DNA of 64,000 nt from Candidatus Sulfurimonas baltica (GTDB lineage Bacteria > Campylobacterota > Campylobacteria > Campylobacterales > Sulfurimonadaceae): contig NZ_CP054492.1 of NCBI RefSeq assembly GCF_015265455.1, forward strand, positions 310,001 to 374,000, given 5' to 3'. The position numbers and the translations under genes are program-made. Positions 5,456-13,662 of the stretch are shown piece by piece. The notes beneath the pieces were generated by a model. The model saw nothing but the letters and a program-made list of their open reading frames with translations, did no database searches and was not told the DNA's origin. Within the stretch, counting starts at the first letter, position 1. Each line of letters begins with the position of its first letter.

Positions 5456-6796
5456 TTATATTTGTTTATCTTTCTTTACTGTTTGTCTTAACCAAAAGAA
5501 GCCAAAAAGACCCGAAAAAAGTGATGCGACCAAGATGCCTACTTTTGCCTGAAAAATTAGTGTTTCATTATCAATAAATGCTAAATCTGCTACAAATATT
5601 GACATTGTAAATCCAATTCCTCCCAAAAAAGCAACTCCAAAAACTTGGCTCATTGAGCTACCTTGTGGAAGTTTTGCAATACCAAGTTTTATGGCAAGCC
5701 ATGAAACTCCAGCAATTCCAATTACTTTGCCAAAAATAAGCCCTGCAATTATTCCAAGTGAGACAGGTTCTAAAAGAGTCTCTCCAAAAGAGGAAAAGTC
5801 TATAGATATACCGGCATTAGCGAGCGCAAAGAGAGGAATCACAATCAAACTCACTGGAAGGTGCAAATCATTTTCCAGTCTAGCTGCAGGAGTACGGATA
5901 GAGTCTATTTTATTTTTTATATTTTGCAATATCGCTTTTTGTTTTTCATGTAGTGTATGGTCTGCCCCAATAGGATAGTTGTCGTACTCATCTAATAGAT
6001 TTTTAGTATGTAGTGTAAAATCAACGGGAGTAAATTTTGGCTTAGAGGGGATTGCCATAGCAGCAATAACACCTGCTATTGTCGCATGAACGCCAGACTC
6101 TAGCATAAAAAACCACATCGCTAAACCAACTATAAAGTATGGCAAAATGGCATGGATTCCAAAGCGATTAAAAGAGACTAAAATCAGAAAAGATGCACCT
6201 GCTAAGATAAGAGGTAGTATGTTGATTTGTTCAGTATAAAAAATTGCTATAACAATAACTGCACCAAGGTCATCAACAATGGCTAGAGCAACTAAAAAAG
6301 TAACAAGTGCCGGTGATACTCTATTTCCAAGAAGAACTAAAGCACTAATTGCAAAAGCAATATCGGTTGCCATGGGAATTCCCCAGCCAACTGAGCCTTG
6401 TGTGCCATAGTTTATACTAAAGTATATAAGTGCCGGTAAAACCATTCCACCAATTGCTGCTAAAATTGGCAAGATGGCAACTTTAATATTTGAGAGCTCT
6501 CCAACTAAAATCTCTCTTTTTATCTCAAGCCCAATAACAAAGAAAAAAATTGCCATTAGTCCATCATTTATCCAGTGGTGTATGCTGTGCGAGAGTTTCC
6601 ACTCTCCAACATTAAAATCTATCTTGGTATGAAAAAAATGCATATAACCATCCGTTAACGGAGTGTTCGCAAGTATCAGAGCAAAAATTGTCATAAACAT
6701 TAGCACTAAACCGGTTGTAGTTTGTGCATGTATAAATGTTTCAAAAGGTGTCGCAACTCTTTTAAAAGCCTTCTCCCATGGTGCGTAAAGTTTCAT
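5456..6796 (-). CDS. nhaA: Na+/H+ antiporter NhaA
   Basis: Inner-membrane sodium/proton antiporter, 446 residues, slightly longer than E. coli NhaA (388). It exports Na+ in exchange for protons and supports pH and salt homeostasis. The transport-site pair of aspartates is visible in ALAIVDDLGAVIVIAIFY, and the FFVIGLEIKRE and HATIAGVIAAMAIP segments are characteristic. About twelve hydrophobic segments can be followed, with a hydrophilic insertion (LLDEYDNYPIGADHTLHEKQ) mid-protein. AAGGA precedes the ATG. It lies 12 bases downstream of the REC-REC-GGDEF gene on the same strand and may be cotranscribed with it. Confidence 0.96.
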   Translation of the reverse strand: MKLYAPWEKAFKRVATPFETFIHAQTTTGLVLMFMTIFALILANTPLTDGYMHFFHTKIDFNVGEWKLSHSIHHWINDGLMAIFFFVIGLEIKREILVGELSNIKVAILPILAAIGGMVLPALIYFSINYGTQGSVGWGIPMATDIAFAISALVLLGNRVSPALVTFLVALAIVDDLGAVIVIAIFYTEQINILPLILAGASFLILVSFNRFGIHAILPYFIVGLAMWFFMLESGVHATIAGVIAAMAIPSKPKFTPVDFTLHTKNLLDEYDNYPIGADHTLHEKQKAILQNIKNKIDSIRTPAARLENDLHLPVSLIVIPLFALANAGISIDFSSFGETLLEPVSLGIIAGLIFGKVIGIAGVSWLAIKLGIAKLPQGSSMSQVFGVAFLGGIGFTMSIFVADLAFIDNETLIFQAKVGILVASLFSGLFGFFWLRQTVKKDKQI

Positions 6797-6808
6797 AAAT
6801 ATTCCTTT

Positions 6809-8053
6809 TTAGTTTGACAAAACTTTGTTTCTTCCAGATTGTTTAGCTTCATAAAGCAGCATGTCCGCTTGATTTACAGTCTCATCTAGTGTGTCTTCAT
6901 GTTGAGTTACTAATCCTATTGATATAGTGAATCTAATCTCTACATTTTTATCTGAGATAGTCACTGAGTTTTGAACGTTAGCTCTTAGTTTTTCAAATAC
7001 ATCTACCGCGTTCTTGGGTTTTATATCTTTTAAAATAATACAAAATTCTTCTCCGCCAAATCTTGCTACAATATCATTTTGACCAGTATTTGCTCTTAAA
7101 ATCTCAGATAAATTAACAATAGCTTTGTCTCCAGTGTCATGGCCATAGGTGTCGTTGATTTTTTTAAAGTGATCTATATCTACCATGGCAATAGCAAAAT
7201 TTTCACCACTCTCTAGTGCAGTGTTAAAATATGTTTGTACATTTTTAAAAAAATAACGTCGATTATACAGTCCTGTTAAAAAGTCTCTATTGGCATGGTT
7301 TGTAATAATTTGTATATTTTCCAAGGCTTCTATGGAGTTGTTAACTCGACATGAGAACTCCTCTTTTGAAAAAGGTTTATTAATATAGTCATTTGCACCA
7401 TTCTTTAAAAACATAGCATTTACTTCATCATCAGTATTGGATGATATTGCAATTATACAAATATCATTTTTATTGTGTGTTTCCCTGATGGCTGCTGTTA
7501 GCTTTAGACCATCCATGACAGGCATAAAGTAGTCTGTTAAAACTAAAGATAAATCAGGATGGGATTTTAACATCCCAAGAGCTTCTTCACCGTGAGCAAC
7601 TGTAATGACTTTATAAAAAAGATTTTCTAACATATTTTTCATCTGTTTTCTAAATACCATAGAGTCATCAACAACTAAAATTGTATGGTTTTGATTTTTT
7701 TGCAGTCTTTTTATTGTGTTTATAATATAGTTTATAACATTTACACCGCTTTTATTTACATAGTCAACTATGTTTTTATTAAGCAGTTCTTTTCTTAAAT
7801 CTTTATCTACATTTGCGCTTAAAACTATTATTTTATTGTTTTTGCTTAAAGCGTAATCAACTATTTCTCCATTTGGAGCATCAGGGAGGTTTAAATCAAG
7901 AAGAGTTAAAAAGTAATCATGTCTTTTTAAAAATAGTTTTGCTTCTAGCAAGCTATATGCTACATCAATTTCAATGTTCAGCTCAGCAACTATTTTTTTA
8001 GTTATCAGTTTCGCCAAGGTCTTGTTGTCTTCTACAATTAAAATTCTTTGCAT
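6809..8053 (-). CDS. PleD-like response regulator: REC-REC-GGDEF diguanylate cyclase
   Basis: Cytoplasmic signalling protein of 414 residues with two receiver domains and a GGDEF domain, the PleD architecture. REC1 spans about residues 1-115 with Asp53 (LLDLNLPD); REC2 spans about 122-245 with Asp174 (VLTDYFMP) and KPF. The GGDEF domain has GGEEF at 333-337 and should make cyclic di-GMP. The I-site position reads GQND, so the arginine is missing and allosteric product inhibition is doubtful. AGGA precedes the ATG with normal spacing. It could act as the phospho-dependent partner of a kinase encoded elsewhere. Confidence 0.92.
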   Translation of the reverse strand: MQRILIVEDNKTLAKLITKKIVAELNIEIDVAYSLLEAKLFLKRHDYFLTLLDLNLPDAPNGEIVDYALSKNNKIIVLSANVDKDLRKELLNKNIVDYVNKSGVNVINYIINTIKRLQKNQNHTILVVDDSMVFRKQMKNMLENLFYKVITVAHGEEALGMLKSHPDLSLVLTDYFMPVMDGLKLTAAIRETHNKNDICIIAISSNTDDEVNAMFLKNGANDYINKPFSKEEFSCRVNNSIEALENIQIITNHANRDFLTGLYNRRYFFKNVQTYFNTALESGENFAIAMVDIDHFKKINDTYGHDTGDKAIVNLSEILRANTGQNDIVARFGGEEFCIILKDIKPKNAVDVFEKLRANVQNSVTISDKNVEIRFTISIGLVTQHEDTLDETVNQADMLLYEAKQSGRNKVLSN

Positions 8054-8140
8054 ATTGTGTCCTAATAATTTTTTTAATAAAAATTTCTTTAATCAAGTTT
8101 TGTATTATAGCAAATAAGCATATATTTTAAATAATGGTTC

Positions 8141-8146
8141 TATAAT
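8141..8146 (+). promoter_or_regulatory. -10 box, predicted leaderless start for the gene at 8153
   Basis: TATAAT, six bases, then the ATG at 8153. No Shine-Dalgarno sequence is visible. This would be the promoter of the LRV/MoxR/DUF2201 operon. Confidence 0.6.
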
Positions 8147-8152
8147 CCTTTT

Positions 8153-9511
8153 ATGAATTTAAAAGATTTACAAAACAAATCAGTACTGTTGTTTGGAAAG
8201 AGCCGTGCTTTTGGAAGTGAGGAGTTTGAGTCACAGATGAAGTTTCATAAAATCACATTGTGCAAAGAGTACAACAGCGGAGTCGTACTTGTCGTAGAGG
8301 GCAAGATGATGAGTCCTTATGAGCATATAGCAAGTGATGAACTTTATAGAGAAAATTCTAAAGAGATTGAGTTTATCTCAATAGATGATTTTGAAAAAGA
8401 GCTGGCAAAGTATATAGACGCAGATACTCTCTTGATGAGTCTTAAGCTATCCCACGATAAGCAGAGATTAAAAAGTTTTTTGCAAAACTCCACCTTGGGT
8501 GATGAGCTGTTTTTGAAACTGCTGAAGATGTACTCGTGGAGGGGTGAAGACTTTTTTGGGAGTGATGATAACAGGGATGTTAGCGCTGCGATTATTTTAA
8601 GGTTTTACAAAAACATAGAGCGCAACCATAATGTTCAGTATGCAACTTCTGGTTTTATGCACCTGCTAGCGCAGACTGATAACAGTAGTCTTATAGCAGC
8701 AATAGCAGAGCTAGAACCTTTGCAAAAAAGTTTTACTCTGGATGTTAAGTCGTCAAACTACACAATTTTGACAGCCATAGCGACTCAAACTGCCACGCCA
8801 AAAAGTGTGCTGAATCTTTTTATAAAAAAATCTTCCTCATATATTAAAACTATTATCGCAATGCGTGATGATTGCGATGAAGAGATGCAGATAGCTCTTT
8901 ACAACTCTATGGATGAAGATGTTCATGAGGCTCTCTCTTATAATTTTAACCTCTGCGAGACACTCTTGCGTAAACTTATAGATCAAGATAAATTTGCACA
9001 TAATATTGCTCTACATGTAAGACTTAATATTGATTTTTTTGAGACATTGTTGCAAAAATATCCTCAAGAGTTGGCTCAAAATGGGTCTCTCTCAATTGAG
9101 ATGCAGGCAAAACTACTCTCCTTACATGTACAAGGTGTTAAAGTCGCTTTGGCATCAAACTTCAAGATAGACAAGAGAATACTTTTAGAGCTTCTTAGGG
9201 AGGATACCAAAGAGGTTAAGTCTGCAATTTATAAAAACTCCGCAACTTCGCAGACAATTCTTGAAAATGCGTATGAAAAAAGAGAGAACCATTTTTCACT
9301 GGCATGCAACGAGAATACTCCAAAGCATATATTAAAGCGGCTTGGAGATAGTTTTGATAAAAAAGTTTTAAGAGCCTTGGCTCAAAATGAAAGCACACCG
9401 GTTGAGATTTTATACCAACTGCAACTGGACTCTGCGTTGGCGAGAGTTGTAAAAGAGAATCCGGCATTTGGAAAATATATTCAACAAAACAGTATAGGAT
9501 GGGAAGTTTGA
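8153..9511 (+). CDS. LRV-repeat protein, first gene of a MoxR/VWA operon
   Basis: Cytoplasmic protein of 452 residues without a signal peptide. I do not recognise a characterised homologue. The first ~90 residues look like a small alpha/beta domain (SVLLFGKSRAFGSEEF), possibly BRCT-like, but this is weak. A Trp/Phe-rich middle segment (YSWRGEDFFGSDDNRDVSAA, about 124-143) looks like a conserved core. The C-terminal half consists of irregular repeats of about 24 residues (LACNENTPKHILKRLGDSF, then LAQNESTPVEILYQLQLDS) typical of leucine-rich repeat variants. Its end overlaps the MoxR ATPase start by 13 bases, implying coupled translation. It may be the substrate adaptor or target of the ATPase/VWA pair; that is inference. 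Confidence 0.75.
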   Translation: MNLKDLQNKSVLLFGKSRAFGSEEFESQMKFHKITLCKEYNSGVVLVVEGKMMSPYEHIASDELYRENSKEIEFISIDDFEKELAKYIDADTLLMSLKLSHDKQRLKSFLQNSTLGDELFLKLLKMYSWRGEDFFGSDDNRDVSAAIILRFYKNIERNHNVQYATSGFMHLLAQTDNSSLIAAIAELEPLQKSFTLDVKSSNYTILTAIATQTATPKSVLNLFIKKSSSYIKTIIAMRDDCDEEMQIALYNSMDEDVHEALSYNFNLCETLLRKLIDQDKFAHNIALHVRLNIDFFETLLQKYPQELAQNGSLSIEMQAKLLSLHVQGVKVALASNFKIDKRILLELLREDTKEVKSAIYKNSATSQTILENAYEKRENHFSLACNENTPKHILKRLGDSFDKKVLRALAQNESTPVEILYQLQLDSALARVVKENPAFGKYIQQNSIGWEV

Positions 9512-10503
9512 AGGCAACAAGTTTAATAAACACGATTACCTCTTTGGTAGAGCAAAAAGTTCCAATATTTTTATGGGGAGCACCGGGAATAGGGAAGTCA
9601 TCTATTGTGAAGCAAGTTGCAGACGAGAGAGGTATCTCTTTTATTGATTTAAGACTTGCACTTATGGACCCCACAGATTTAAAAGGTATTCCGTTTTACG
9701 ATAAAGAGTCACATACGGCACTTTGGGCACCTCCGGCTTTTTTGCCAAAAGAGGGTGAAGGGATTTTGTTTTTAGATGAGCTGAACTCCGCACCCCCGTC
9801 TGTTCAGGCTTCAGCATATCAGCTAATACTAGACAGAAAAGTGGGAGAGTATGAACTTCCGGATGGATGGGCAATAGTCGCAGCGGGAAACCGTGAGGGA
9901 GACAGAGGGGTCACATACAGAATGCCAAGCCCGCTGGCAAATAGATTTGTCCATTTTGAAATGGAAGTAAATGTAGAGGATTGGCGCTTTTGGGCATATT
10001 CCAAAGAGGTAGACGAGAGAATTATCTCATATATTTCTTATAAAAGCGAACACTTGTTTACATTTGACTCCAAAAGTGATGTTAAGAGCTTTGCAACACC
10101 TAGAAGCTGGGAATATGTAAACAAAATATTAAAAAGCACAATATCAGATGAACTACTTCTAGATACTTTAGGCGGAGCAATCGGACGAGATGTTGCTGTC
10201 TCCTTTTTGAGCTTTACAAAAGTTATGAATCGTCTTCCTGATATACAAAATATTTTAACATCCGCAAGTGGTGAATACAGTGATGAGGTCGATGTTTTAT
10301 ATGCTTTAAGCACAGGTCTTGTGAGTGCCTATTTAAAAGATAAGAGTGAAGAGAGTTTGGAGAACTTGCTAACATATACTCTTGATTTAAAGAGCGAATT
10401 TGCAGTAATGATAGTGCAGGATTTACAAAGAAACGGTGTGGATATGCAGAACTCTGCAGTTTTTAAAGAGTGGGTTCGTAAGTTTGCTTTTCTTTTAGGG
10501 TAA
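9499..10503 (+). CDS. MoxR-family AAA+ ATPase
   Basis: Cytoplasmic AAA+ ATPase of 334 residues. Walker A GAPGIGKS is at 27-34, Walker B FLDE at 91-94 in the segment ILFLDELNSAPPSVQASAYQ, and sensor 1 lies in VAAGNREGD. A MoxR-type helical lid follows. These ATPases act as chaperones that remodel or insert metals or cofactors into targets, usually with a VWA-domain partner encoded next door. That is the case here, since a VWA protein begins nine bases after its stop. It overlaps the LRV gene by 13 bases. The client is not known. Confidence 0.9.
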   Translation: MGSLKATSLINTITSLVEQKVPIFLWGAPGIGKSSIVKQVADERGISFIDLRLALMDPTDLKGIPFYDKESHTALWAPPAFLPKEGEGILFLDELNSAPPSVQASAYQLILDRKVGEYELPDGWAIVAAGNREGDRGVTYRMPSPLANRFVHFEMEVNVEDWRFWAYSKEVDERIISYISYKSEHLFTFDSKSDVKSFATPRSWEYVNKILKSTISDELLLDTLGGAIGRDVAVSFLSFTKVMNRLPDIQNILTSASGEYSDEVDVLYALSTGLVSAYLKDKSEESLENLLTYTLDLKSEFAVMIVQDLQRNGVDMQNSAVFKEWVRKFAFLLG

Positions 10504-10512
10504 TACTTAACT

Positions 10513-11679
10513 ATGTCAATAGAGAAAAAAATCTCACAGGCCAAAGCTAAACTATTAGTTGATTATCCACTTTTTGGAACAATTGCTTCAAAGTTGGAGC
10601 TGAGCATAAATGATGATATACAAAGCTTTAAAAGCAACGGTGTAAAGCTGGAGTATAACAGCGATTTTTTTCAAGGCTTGGAACTGAGTGAGATGGAGTT
10701 TGTCTTTGCAAACGGGGCTATGCACGCTTCACTGGCTCATGAGTCACGTAAAAATGGCAGAAGTGGCTGGTTATGGCAACTTGCGACCGACTATGCAGTA
10801 AATGACATGTTGGTTGAGAATGGTTTAGAGAGACCCCATGAGGCACACTACTCAAAAAGATTTAGCGGACTCTATGCGGAGGAGATTTATGCCGAGCTAA
10901 AAGCTGACATACTTCGTGAGGATGAAGGTTTGGAGTATGAAGCTGATGATGTGAATGATATTAATTCTGATGAATCTAGTAAAAGTTCAGAAGTTAATGG
11001 ACCCCTTGAGTCCAGCTTATCTAATGACTCAGCCGAAGAAGCACAAAATGAAACTATCCAAGCAGAACAACTCTTTGAGGAGTTTGCAAAAGCAACTCTT
11101 GAGGCTGAGATAAAAAATGGCGAAATCCCAGCTGCGATAGATAGGTTTTTCAACCTTACATGTAAGAGTAAAATTGATTGGCGAGATGAGCTAAAAGCGG
11201 CACTCGACAGGTTTCATAAAGATGACTACACTCTTTTGCCACCCAATAAAAAGTTTCTACATGTAGGGATATATTTGCCCTCATGTATAAGCCAAAGATT
11301 TAAGTTGGTAGTGGCGGTGGACAGCTCAGGCTCAATAGATGAAAAACTCTTAAATGAGTTTTTAAGTGAGTTGAACTTTCTTATGAATACAATTCAAAAC
11401 TACGAAATAGAGTTGTTGGTTTGTGATGATAAAATCCAATCACATAAAACTTTTTACAGTGGTGATATTTTAGAAGCTGATTTAAAAGGTGGCGGAGCTA
11501 CAGACTTTAGAGCTGTTTTTGAGTTTATACAAAATGAGCTTGAAGATACTAAACTGCTTCTGTATTTTACGGATTTAGATGGAATATTTCCACATGTAGC
11601 CCCGTTTTATGATGTAAAATGGATAAGCCAAAAAGTGACTGAAGTTCCATTTGGAGAAGTTATACTTTTAGAGGATTAG
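10513..11679 (+). CDS. DUF2201-family protein: putative metallopeptidase domain plus VWA domain
   Basis: Cytoplasmic protein of 388 residues. The N-terminal ~130 residues match the putative metallopeptidase part of DUF2201, with HASLAHE at 71-77 as the candidate metal site and WLWQLATDYAVNDML after it; this is not a canonical HExxH. An acidic, Ser-rich linker follows (about 135-190). The C-terminal VWA domain keeps a full MIDAS set: DSSGS at 270-274, Thr330 in GGGATDF, and Asp354 in FTDLDG. VWA proteins of this type work with MoxR ATPases, and this gene directly follows one. Function is unknown; a metal-dependent maturation or proteolytic role is inference. Confidence 0.85.
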   Translation: MSIEKKISQAKAKLLVDYPLFGTIASKLELSINDDIQSFKSNGVKLEYNSDFFQGLELSEMEFVFANGAMHASLAHESRKNGRSGWLWQLATDYAVNDMLVENGLERPHEAHYSKRFSGLYAEEIYAELKADILREDEGLEYEADDVNDINSDESSKSSEVNGPLESSLSNDSAEEAQNETIQAEQLFEEFAKATLEAEIKNGEIPAAIDRFFNLTCKSKIDWRDELKAALDRFHKDDYTLLPPNKKFLHVGIYLPSCISQRFKLVVAVDSSGSIDEKLLNEFLSELNFLMNTIQNYEIELLVCDDKIQSHKTFYSGDILEADLKGGGATDFRAVFEFIQNELEDTKLLLYFTDLDGIFPHVAPFYDVKWISQKVTEVPFGEVILLED

Positions 11680-11693
11680 CACGTGAATTATTG

Positions 11694-11699
11694 TATAAT
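11694..11699 (+). promoter_or_regulatory. -10 box, predicted leaderless start for the helicase at 11706
   Basis: TATAAT, six bases, then the ATG at 11706. This argues for the downstream ATG rather than the in-frame TTG at 11691, which itself overlaps the -10 box. Confidence 0.55.
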
Positions 11700-11705
11700 T
11701 TTTTC

Positions 11706-12962
11706 ATGAATTATTTGAAAAATGTTATTGAAAAACTACAGGCAAAAAAGAACGTTTTTTTAACCGGCGGGGCAGGGGTCGGCAAAACAACCATTACAAG
11801 AGATGTGATACAAGCCTACGAAGAAGATGCAAAAAAAGTTGCAAAATTGGCCTCGACTGGAATGGCGGCCACTCTTATAAGCGGTCAGACTCTGCACAGC
11901 TTTTTAGATTTGGGAATCGCTTCAAACATAGATGAGCTAGAGAAAAACGGCAAGCTAGAGATCAAAGCGAAGGTGAAAAAACTTCTCTCCAGTATGGAGC
12001 TAATCGTTATAGATGAAATCTCCATGGTAAGTGATACTCTTTTTGACATGATTAGAGTTAGGCTTGCTCAGGCAGAGTTTAGAGGCTCTCTTCTTGTGGT
12101 GGGTGACTTTTTACAGCTCCCTCCTGTAGTTCGTGGATATGGCGATGTTAAGTTTGCTTTTGAATCATCATCTTGGGATAAGTTTGGGTTTGAAACAGTA
12201 GAATTGACACATATTTATAGAACCGATGACAAGGAGTTTATAGAACTTTTAGCACATGTAAGAGACGGATTTGTAAATGAAGATGTACATAACTCGCTCA
12301 ATGAGTTTATAAAGCCTCTTCCAGAAGATTTAAGTGAGTTTACTTTTCTTTTTGGCAAAAACAACTCAGCTTCATTTCACAATAAAAATCAGCTCTCTTT
12401 TGTAGATAGCGAACTGTTTATAAAAGAGGCTCAGGTCATTAAACATATAAAAACTACTAAAGATTTTGAGATAGAGCGTTTTATGGACGATGCAAGGATA
12501 GAAAAAGAGTTGGAGTTAAAAGTAGGAGTTCCGGTTCTTTTTACAAGAAACTCTTGGAACTATTTTAACGGTGAGAGAGGTTTGATAGTAAATGTTGACA
12601 ACAACTTTGTATATGTTCAAAAAAGTGACGGTGTTGTTGTAAAACTTGAAGCAATCGCACAAAGCAAGAGCATGTGGAAAGAAAAAAGCATAAGTGGTAA
12701 AAAAGAGATTGTTGAAGAGCCTGTTTTTAGTGTTTACCAGTACCCAATAAAACTAGCTTATGCTATTACAATTCATAAATCACAAGGTATGTCTATCGAG
12801 GATTTGATAATAGAGACTAATGAGATATTTGCACCATCGCAGTTTTATGTGGCGATATCAAGAAGTTCAAACCCTAAAAGATTGAATCTTATAGCACCGT
12901 CAAAGCAGTGGAGAGAGATAGTTTTTGTAAATTCGAAAGCTTTGGAGTTTGTTAAAACTTAA
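11706..12962 (+). CDS. PIF1/RecD-like superfamily 1B DNA helicase
   Basis: ATP-dependent 5'-3' type helicase of 418 residues. Walker A GGAGVGKTT lies near residue 21, motif II DEIS in LIVIDEISMVSDTLF, motif III GDFLQLPP, and the C-terminal motifs YAITIHKSQGMS and FYVAISRS are those of PIF1/RecD helicases. There is no extra nuclease domain. I chose the ATG at 11706; an in-frame TTG five codons earlier is possible but has no ribosome binding site and lies in the promoter. It starts 26 bases after the DUF2201 gene with its own -10 box. Its 3' end overlaps the convergent PD-(D/E)XK-like gene by 11 bases. Confidence 0.9.
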   Translation: MNYLKNVIEKLQAKKNVFLTGGAGVGKTTITRDVIQAYEEDAKKVAKLASTGMAATLISGQTLHSFLDLGIASNIDELEKNGKLEIKAKVKKLLSSMELIVIDEISMVSDTLFDMIRVRLAQAEFRGSLLVVGDFLQLPPVVRGYGDVKFAFESSSWDKFGFETVELTHIYRTDDKEFIELLAHVRDGFVNEDVHNSLNEFIKPLPEDLSEFTFLFGKNNSASFHNKNQLSFVDSELFIKEAQVIKHIKTTKDFEIERFMDDARIEKELELKVGVPVLFTRNSWNYFNGERGLIVNVDNNFVYVQKSDGVVVKLEAIAQSKSMWKEKSISGKKEIVEEPVFSVYQYPIKLAYAITIHKSQGMSIEDLIIETNEIFAPSQFYVAISRSSNPKRLNLIAPSKQWREIVFVNSKALEFVKT

Positions 12963-13662
12963 AAGCTTTAAGCTTCCCTTTCGATGATAGTATCAGTACT
13001 TTGGAAAACTTACGTTTGTTTAGTTTGATTTTTTTAAGTGCTTTAAAGTCATCATTATCTAATCCATATATTATAGAGTCAACTAATATTAGCCACCATT
13101 TGTCAAATAGATTAAAGTTTTTAGATATTTTTTTATCTTTTTCATCAATAACTAATTGAATGTTTTTGTGAAGCTCATTTACAATCCACAAATGATCATT
13201 ATTGCAACCAGCAAAAATATACTGTACTGATTTTTTCTTTATCGGCGTAAATGTTATTTCTAAATAATCAGATACTTTGAATGACTTTTTTTTATGGATT
13301 TTATGAGTGTGCTTTTTTAATACTTTTTTCGTTTTTTTAATAACACCGTCTTTACTATCTACATGTAACGGTTTGGAAAGTATTATTGATATATATGCAG
13401 AATTTCTATAATCAGTGTGCTTAAAAGTAGAAATTATTTTTTTTATTTTTTTAATGAGGTGTATTTCAAAGTTTTCTATACTAATCAACTTCTCACCATT
13501 TATATGGTTTCGATTGAGTCTCCTAACCTCTACTGCTACTTCATTGTCAAGAAGAAAATCAGGGGTGACATTTCCAAGTGGCTCATGCTCTAATTTTGTA
13601 TAGTCTAAAGTTTGTAAATACTTCTTTGCTCTTGTTTCGTCTTTATTTTCTTGTCTGCTCAT
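12952..13662 (-). CDS. Hypothetical protein, possible PD-(D/E)XK nuclease fold
   Basis: Lysine-rich protein of 236 residues, no signal peptide or membrane helix, not recognised. Residues ~33-50 (TPDFLLDNEVAVEVRRLN) have the spacing of a PD-(D/E)XK nuclease core, with PD, then E-x-R in place of E-x-K. This is a pattern match only. The second half is very basic (KKTKKVLKKHTHKIHKKK), which would suit nucleic-acid contact. It is convergent with the PIF1-like helicase and overlaps it by 11 bases. The gene is more AT-rich than its neighbours and may be horizontally acquired. The ATG is preceded by TAAAAT eight bases upstream and no clear ribosome binding site. Confidence 0.6.
   Translation of the reverse strand: MSRQENKDETRAKKYLQTLDYTKLEHEPLGNVTPDFLLDNEVAVEVRRLNRNHINGEKLISIENFEIHLIKKIKKIISTFKHTDYRNSAYISIILSKPLHVDSKDGVIKKTKKVLKKHTHKIHKKKSFKVSDYLEITFTPIKKKSVQYIFAGCNNDHLWIVNELHKNIQLVIDEKDKKISKNFNLFDKWWLILVDSIIYGLDNDDFKALKKIKLNKRKFSKVLILSSKGKLKAFKF

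Follow-up and report, generated by a model that had tools for sequence, protein, structure and literature searches.

What do a MoxR-type ATPase, a VWA-domain protein and a repeat protein do together when their genes are packed side by side? MoxR–VWA motors are widespread, and for most of them the client and the principle of targeting are undefined. We addressed this question at a locus of Candidatus Sulfurimonas baltica (Campylobacterota), within a window of 64,000 nucleotides (NZ_CP054492.1, positions 310,001 to 374,000, forward strand) whose own numbering is used throughout. Here, three plus-strand open reading frames (ORFs) encode, in order, a protein combining a predicted BRCT fold with LRV repeats, a MoxR ATPase and a DUF2201 protein with a VWA domain. 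The first two ORFs overlap by 13 bases and the second and third are separated by a gap of 9 bases, in agreement with the tight packing described in a first-pass annotation of the locus. Reasoning by analogy, and with a probability of roughly 0.6, we propose that the three products would constitute one dedicated ATP-driven remodelling machine, with the BRCT–LRV protein as its adaptor.

The three genes form a conserved module

Among 397 Campylobacterota genomes, 95 had a match to the repeat gene, which was full-length (E ≤1e-60) in 69 and either short LRV-only or partial in the other 26. A DUF2201_N gene was present in 68 of the 69 genomes with a full repeat gene vs. 20 of the 328 others (Fisher test, 4e-57, a value that treats related genomes as independent and includes DUF2201 matches that may be of another subtype). 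In the sole exception (G458), the contig ends inside MoxR. Within the family to which the window belongs (228 genomes; cut-offs of E 1e-29 for the repeat gene and 1e-20 for DUF2201, with 22 weaker repeat matches dropped), both genes occurred in 153 genomes, the repeat gene only in 8, DUF2201 only in 17 and neither in 50. In other words, DUF2201 accompanied the repeat gene in 153/161 genomes and was found in 17/67 genomes without it. Conservation of the genes in Campylobacterota, a point raised by the first-pass annotation, was thus borne out in both samples. Five of the eight repeat-only genomes were <90% complete and a sixth (G052) 92%; the remaining two (G151, G216; 99–100% complete) lacked a DUF2201 match, and their repeat gene was reduced to fragments (L195, and L193 and L194, respectively). 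Several of the 17 DUF2201-only genomes contained other subtypes only, and in one (G208) the contig ends inside MoxR.

In the family and its near relatives, every one of 64 locus entries (some genomes being entered twice) had MoxR no more than 723 bases downstream of the repeat gene. In other families, the two genes lay beside each other at 17 of 23 loci, one with an ORF in between. Linkage of DUF2201 was looser, with insertions between MoxR and DUF2201 at several loci; in genus g61, DUF2201 is often far off in the genome, yet both genes are retained. In a tree of 79 DUF2201 sequences, the 61 type-A rows all clustered together (support 100/99). Of these, 17 make up a derived subclade without a repeat gene alongside (L101, L103, L106, L112, L114, L152, L153, L155, L156, L158–L165), and 43 of the remaining 44 stem from genomes with a full repeat gene; as the tree program flagged long branches, fine placements are unsure. 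The triad is a conserved module in part of Campylobacterota, and adjacency of the repeat gene and MoxR is its strictest feature.

Some loci had other genes in close proximity. In three loci of genus g61 (L098–L100), DUF2201 adjoins MotA/TolQ/ExbB-like and OmpA/MotB-like genes (family-tested in L098, judged by eye in L099 and L100). In G458 (L142), the repeat and MoxR genes come after genes that, by eye, resemble a Bat (VWA) operon.

A predicted BRCT fold precedes the LRV repeats

The AlphaFold2 model of the full-length BRCT–LRV protein, built on 51 aligned sequences, reached a predicted local distance difference test score (pLDDT) of 90.8 and a predicted template modelling score of 0.77. Its residues 1–88 follow the order beta-alpha-beta-beta-alpha-beta-alpha. 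For this part, VIA-align ranked the BRCT domain of LigA (DnlJ) first (Z 9.3–9.4, 77 aligned residues, 2.1–2.2 Å; the matched entry is an integrative model), RFC1, Pol mu and XRCC1/ligase III being among the BRCT rows that came next. When folded separately, residues 1–92 (pLDDT 85.2) returned four Foldseek matches at E ≤0.001, all of them LigA or RFC1 chains (Foldseek E 1.5e-4 for the domain), and 50 VIA rows, every one a BRCT-bearing chain judging by title or domain content. Foldseek with the full model, where the helical repeats dominated, gave no match at E ≤0.001; the BRCT fold emerged from VIA-align and the separate domain model instead. We conclude from the models that residues 1–88 are predicted to adopt a BRCT fold whose sequence is far from known BRCTs. 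The first-pass annotation had overlooked this fold, as well as the degenerate peptidase half and the fixed leaderless-type spacing of the TATAAT box described below.

At the sequence level, the PF00533 profile did not match the window's repeat protein and, across its own genome, matched just one other locus. Comparison with 17 LigA-type BRCTs of the phylum (frames taken as LigA on our own reading) by hhalign yielded E 0.0016 at a probability of 16%. The glycine after strand 1 is invariant (51/51 relatives). In BRCT domains of the LigA/RFC1 type, Thr-Gly and an Arg form the phosphate pocket. Two residues that do not vary within the LigA set, Thr (LigA T13) and Arg (LigA R20), are unconserved in the aligned BRCT columns here, and the Lys of helix 2 falls outside these columns. 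The protein is also acidic, with a mean net charge of −16 (−4.5 for the BRCT part). A BRCT fold is indicated, but given the unconserved Thr and Arg and the acidic charge, a DNA-end-binding BRCT is unsupported.

Residues 89–195 are the most conserved part of the protein, with a mean majority of 0.85 over residues 141–160. Further downstream, residues 314–440 aligned with the LRV protein 1lrv (VIA-align; Z 7.2, 116 aligned residues, 4.3 Å). At E ≤1, the LRV_2 model matched 33/51 and the LRV model 22/51 aligned relatives (best 6.2e-14 and 2.3e-5, respectively). The earlier designation as an LRV repeat protein hence stood on the relatives, while the window protein alone matched no LRV model. A Trp-rich core, also claimed previously, is not present: W129 and W450 are the only tryptophans of the protein. 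Its four cysteines are scattered and form no cluster. The LRV part varies in length among relatives. A separate short LRV-only protein of ~190–230 amino acids is encoded in many genomes (e.g. G238, G254, G351), triad-free ones included. At the C-terminus, G-W occurs inside the last four residues in 49/51 relatives, and residues 448–452 have a pLDDT <50, i.e. are unstructured in the model; this conserved I-G-W tail may serve as a docking peptide. A sequence search against solved structures returned a chance match only (E 1.9), and NCBIfam nothing for the repeat protein.

Intact motor motifs and a degenerate peptidase half

The second ORF matched AAA_3 (3.5e-8, 33.9 bits, cut-off 27) and retains intact Walker A and B motifs, confirming its assignment as a MoxR ATPase. 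The third matched DUF2201_N (PF13203; 8.6e-33, 114.5 bits, cut-off 23.2) and the VWA-like DUF2201 model (PF09967; 1.2e-21, 77.6 bits, cut-off 26.4); no match was found among solved structures by sequence search, and no useful one in NCBIfam. Both proteins have phage relatives: MoxR matched phrog_1297 (3.5e-104; 811 phage records) and the DUF2201 protein phrog_1314 (labelled HNH endonuclease; 2e-72; 424 phage records), relatives being annotated as N4 gp24-like and gp25-like.

The DUF2201 protein had been described as a metallopeptidase/VWA protein whose HASLAHE motif may bind metal. Its VWA half held up, the residues of the metal ion-dependent adhesion site (MIDAS; D270, S272, S274, T330, D354) being invariant in 24/24 members of the window branch. 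The peptidase half did not. The alignment revealed HExxH to be kept in 5/5 phage and plasmid relatives read, vs. 0/24 proteins of the window branch, 0/14 other type-A rows and 0/7 paralogues of a second type, in which HTLLH or HALLH takes its place. Moreover, the last His of HExxHxxxxH is a Tyr in 3/24 branch members. As HExxH, including its HE, is gone from the branch, HASLAHE is a remnant and unlikely to be a metal site. The sequences suggest that a family annotated as a putative metallopeptidase, DUF2201, has turned into a pseudo-peptidase in the window branch.

The second MoxR–DUF2201 type (HTLLH/HALLH where aligned) is encoded together with a small partner starting with MEELFNL or similar (L102, L104, L107, L108, L109, L113, L114, L152, L154, L157, L158, L164, L167). 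One of these loci (L109) has the nitrogenase-associated protein TIGR01616 nearby.

A –10 box at fixed distance from the start codon

The –10 box proposed earlier was substantiated by conservation of its spacing. In the window, TATAAT ends six bases before the ATG of the repeat gene. Of 52 distinct upstream sequences, from relatives down to 34% protein identity, 49 bear a match of at least 5/6 to TATAAT at positions –13 to –11 (48 exact), compared to a Markov expectation of 5.1% for a box at that spacing. A Shine-Dalgarno-like sequence is present in two. The same test scored 2/50 for MoxR, 0/34 for DUF2201 and 5/13 for PIF1. A cruder count gave 50/788 for other ORFs of the same loci at their first ATG and, over all families, 35/49 for the repeat gene, the 788 including the window's own repeat gene. 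A sigma-70 scan requiring a –35 hexamer did not list the TATAAT and found no –35 element, and promoter-like sites in the region were not in excess (11 found vs. 13.6 expected).

With a –10 box that ends six bases upstream of the ATG, transcription is expected to begin at the start codon itself, so that the repeat gene would be transcribed and translated as a leaderless mRNA. In Campylobacter jejuni, leaderless genes were defined by the same pattern in a differential RNA-seq study, which connects them with stress and with DNA repair and describes leaderlessness as little conserved between Epsilonproteobacteria (PMC3847290). The putative leaderless start reported here seems far better conserved than the few cases compared there. 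In family f11, an ankyrin-like gene (by eye) precedes the repeat gene and bears the leaderless-like –10 box (L096, L110, L143).

A candidate remodelling machine and its alternatives

If the three proteins act as one machine, MoxR would be its hexameric ATPase and DUF2201 its VWA co-chaperone, with the MIDAS contacting the client or the adaptor and the dead peptidase half serving as a docking domain. The BRCT–LRV protein would be the client adaptor: its BRCT fold and helical core would grip either the client or a scaffold, its LRV solenoid would form an adjustable arm and its flexible I-G-W tail would dock on the motor. ATP hydrolysis might then twist the VWA domain against the docked parts and reshape the client, as in NorQD. 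With a leaderless mRNA, translation of the first gene could continue while normal initiation is low, suggesting a possible role for the machine under stress. This proposal builds on what the sequences and models show: gene order, co-occurrence, the fold, the degeneration of HExxH, Walker and MIDAS motifs that are intact, and the conserved –10 spacing. Mutual binding of the three proteins, docking by the tail, transcription and translation without a leader, and every statement on the client are what we infer. Recognition of the client of the MoxR–VWA pair by the LRV repeats, as suggested in the first-pass annotation, fits this anatomy and is supported.

Several observations weigh against a dedicated three-part machine. 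DUF2201 occurs without the repeat gene in 17 genomes of the family and 20 of the phylum sample (in part as other subtypes), and two genomes (G105, G191) keep a window-type DUF2201 gene where the repeat gene was not found. Outside the family, MoxR lies away from the repeat gene in 6/23 loci, and the –10 box is present in 8/23, seven of which belong to genus g61. When any candidate ATG is allowed, the box is found in 65/788 background ORFs, the highest count. Finally, the neighbourhoods read contained no conserved neighbour that would point to a client.

Among more specific or competing explanations, the triad might mature one metalloenzyme by inserting a metal cofactor, with the LRV protein recognising the enzyme. 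LRV proteins have been linked to nif genes in Azotobacter, and the TIGR01616 protein (110.6 bits, cut-off 109) adjoins a paralogous MoxR–DUF2201 pair in one locus. A known role of MoxR–VWA pairs is of this sort, NorQD being the one that loads nitric oxide reductase with iron (PMC9976466, PMC13036017). However, the loci read showed no metalloenzyme as a conserved neighbour, the LRV protein here has a predicted BRCT fold and lacks a cysteine cluster, and the peptidase-type metal site is broken, leaving this explanation possible but unlikely.

We consider it rather unlikely that the motor is recruited, by way of the BRCT fold, to DNA ends or to complexes of DNA repair or replication. LigA and RFC1 BRCTs are the nearest folds, DNA or nucleotide genes lie close to the phage MoxR–DUF2201 relatives in 3/6 phage regions read, and leaderless genes of this class include DNA-repair genes, as stated in the Campylobacter study (PMC3847290). 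Yet the LigA T13 and R20 equivalents are unconserved and the protein is acidic, the other 3/6 phage regions have no such neighbour, and for jumbo-phage pairs, a published proposal assigns them to virion assembly, with peptidolytic processing (PMC7824862). A detailed version, in which a BRCT-guided MoxR motor and a pseudo-peptidase VWA lever would disassemble or reset a repair or replication complex under stress, from an operon with a leaderless start conserved family-wide, is slightly more doubtful again: it is favoured by the kinship of the fold, by leaderless expression and by some of the phage contexts, and disfavoured by the charge and the missing phosphate-pocket residues. As the metalloenzyme and DNA-linked explanations are partly sub-cases of the proposed remodelling machine, their odds overlap with its own.

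An anti-phage defence or conflict system is very unlikely. Ternary MoxR–VWA conflict systems do exist (PMC7159879), and one locus (L011) has, by eye, restriction-like genes between MoxR and DUF2201; but PADLOC assigned the LRV and DUF2201 proteins to 0 families and MoxR to weak AAA matches only (best 4.8e-4), relatives of the repeat protein were not found on plasmids, phages or viral contigs, and the triad shows a long-standing chromosomal distribution inside one family. An active DUF2201 peptidase that processes the client, as its DUF2201_N homology and the HExxH of phage and plasmid relatives might imply, is scarcely credible with HExxH in 0/24 branch members.

Locus map and neighbouring genes

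The triad is carried on a single 2.74-Mb contig, and its named close relatives come from Sulfurimonas and other Campylobacterota metagenome assemblies. Coordinates are compiled in Table 1. The PIF1-like helicase downstream, previously suggested as a functional neighbour, fared poorly: it lies inside the fetched stretch in 13/33 related loci (some stretches ending early), has its own leaderless-like –10 box, and a TATAAT at leaderless spacing precedes 5/13 distinct PIF1 upstream sequences. It is probably a loose neighbour, separate from the triad; because of its inconsistent presence among related loci, we rejected it as a fourth part. No RNA family matched within positions 6700–13000.

Table 1. 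Features of the triad locus (window coordinates).
Feature	Position	Strand	Basis or remark
TATAAT, predicted –10 box	8141–8146	+	–12 to –7 from ATG, leaderless-type spacing
BRCT–LRV protein, 452 aa	8153–9511	+	ORF; LRV families in relatives; structure model
Predicted BRCT-fold domain, residues 1–88	8153–8416	+	VIA-align and Foldseek on predicted structure
Conserved helical core, residues 89–195 (MSLKL ... NRDV ... RFY ... NHN)	8417–8737	+	conservation, invariant columns
LRV repeat solenoid, residues 196–446	8738–9490	+	1lrv structural match; length variable among relatives
C-terminal I-G-W tail, residues 447–452	9491–9508	+	G-W conservation; low pLDDT
MoxR-type AAA+ ATPase, 334 aa	9499–10503	+	AAA_3, Walker motifs, phrog_1297
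Walker A, residues 27–34	9577–9600	+	in MoxR ORF
Walker B, residues 89–94	9763–9780	+	in MoxR ORF
DUF2201 protein, degenerate metallopeptidase domain and VWA domain, 388 aa	10513–11679	+	DUF2201_N, DUF2201, phrog_1314
HExxHxxxxH remnant NGAMHASLAH, residues 67–76 of DUF2201 protein	10711–10740	+	alignment with HExxH-bearing phage/plasmid relatives
MIDAS DxSxS, residues 270–274 of DUF2201 protein, plus T330 and D354	11320–11334	+	invariant 24/24
PIF1/RecD-like helicase, neighbour	11706–12962	+	PF05970 7.2e-29; own TATAAT 11694–11699

Comparison with known systems

With the Azotobacter LRV protein (1lrv), the window protein shares its LRV repeats, but it has an N-terminal BRCT fold where 1lrv carries an FeS domain. 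The E. coli yehL/yehP genes with a WGR protein may be a parallel. NorQ/NorD (and likewise CbbQ/CbbO) combine a MoxR ATPase with a VWA partner whose N-terminal domain is separate, as in the window; that domain of NorD is not known to be DUF2201. Unlike the triad, NorQ/NorD is a two-part system with a known client, and no BRCT–LRV subunit is named in the descriptions read. In NorQD, a VWA finger is reported to sit inside the pore of MoxR, and the client to be remodelled as ATP drives the VWA domain to rotate against the N-terminal domain (PMC9976466, PMC13036017). The MoxR–vWA ternary conflict systems of Kaur et al. 2020 resemble the triad in having a third component besides MoxR and VWA (PMC7159879), but the window MoxR scored below the cut-off of the bpMoxR profile (13.5 vs. 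27 bits) and no matching third component is present.

The phage MoxR–DUF2201 pairs, whether N4 gp24/gp25-like or from jumbo phages, have the same ATPase and peptidase–VWA architecture as the window proteins. Genes of the former kind are described as core genes of N4-like phages in the literature; the likeness to N4 is based on annotations of relatives. As one instance, the MoxR of a Pseudomonas jumbo phage (LC727698.1) shares 46% identity with the window MoxR across 84% of the latter. Unlike the window branch, those phage and plasmid proteins that were read retain HExxH, and no phage record matches the BRCT–LRV protein. In agreement with the first-pass annotation, which had called the LRV partner undescribed, the literature searched (subscription journals and preprints lay outside the search) contained no account of such a BRCT–LRV third subunit. 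While MoxR–VWA and MoxR–DUF2201 pairs are known, this third subunit is the new part, and its predicted BRCT fold, combined with an LRV solenoid and a tail likely to act in docking, offers a handle on how such motors may capture their clients.

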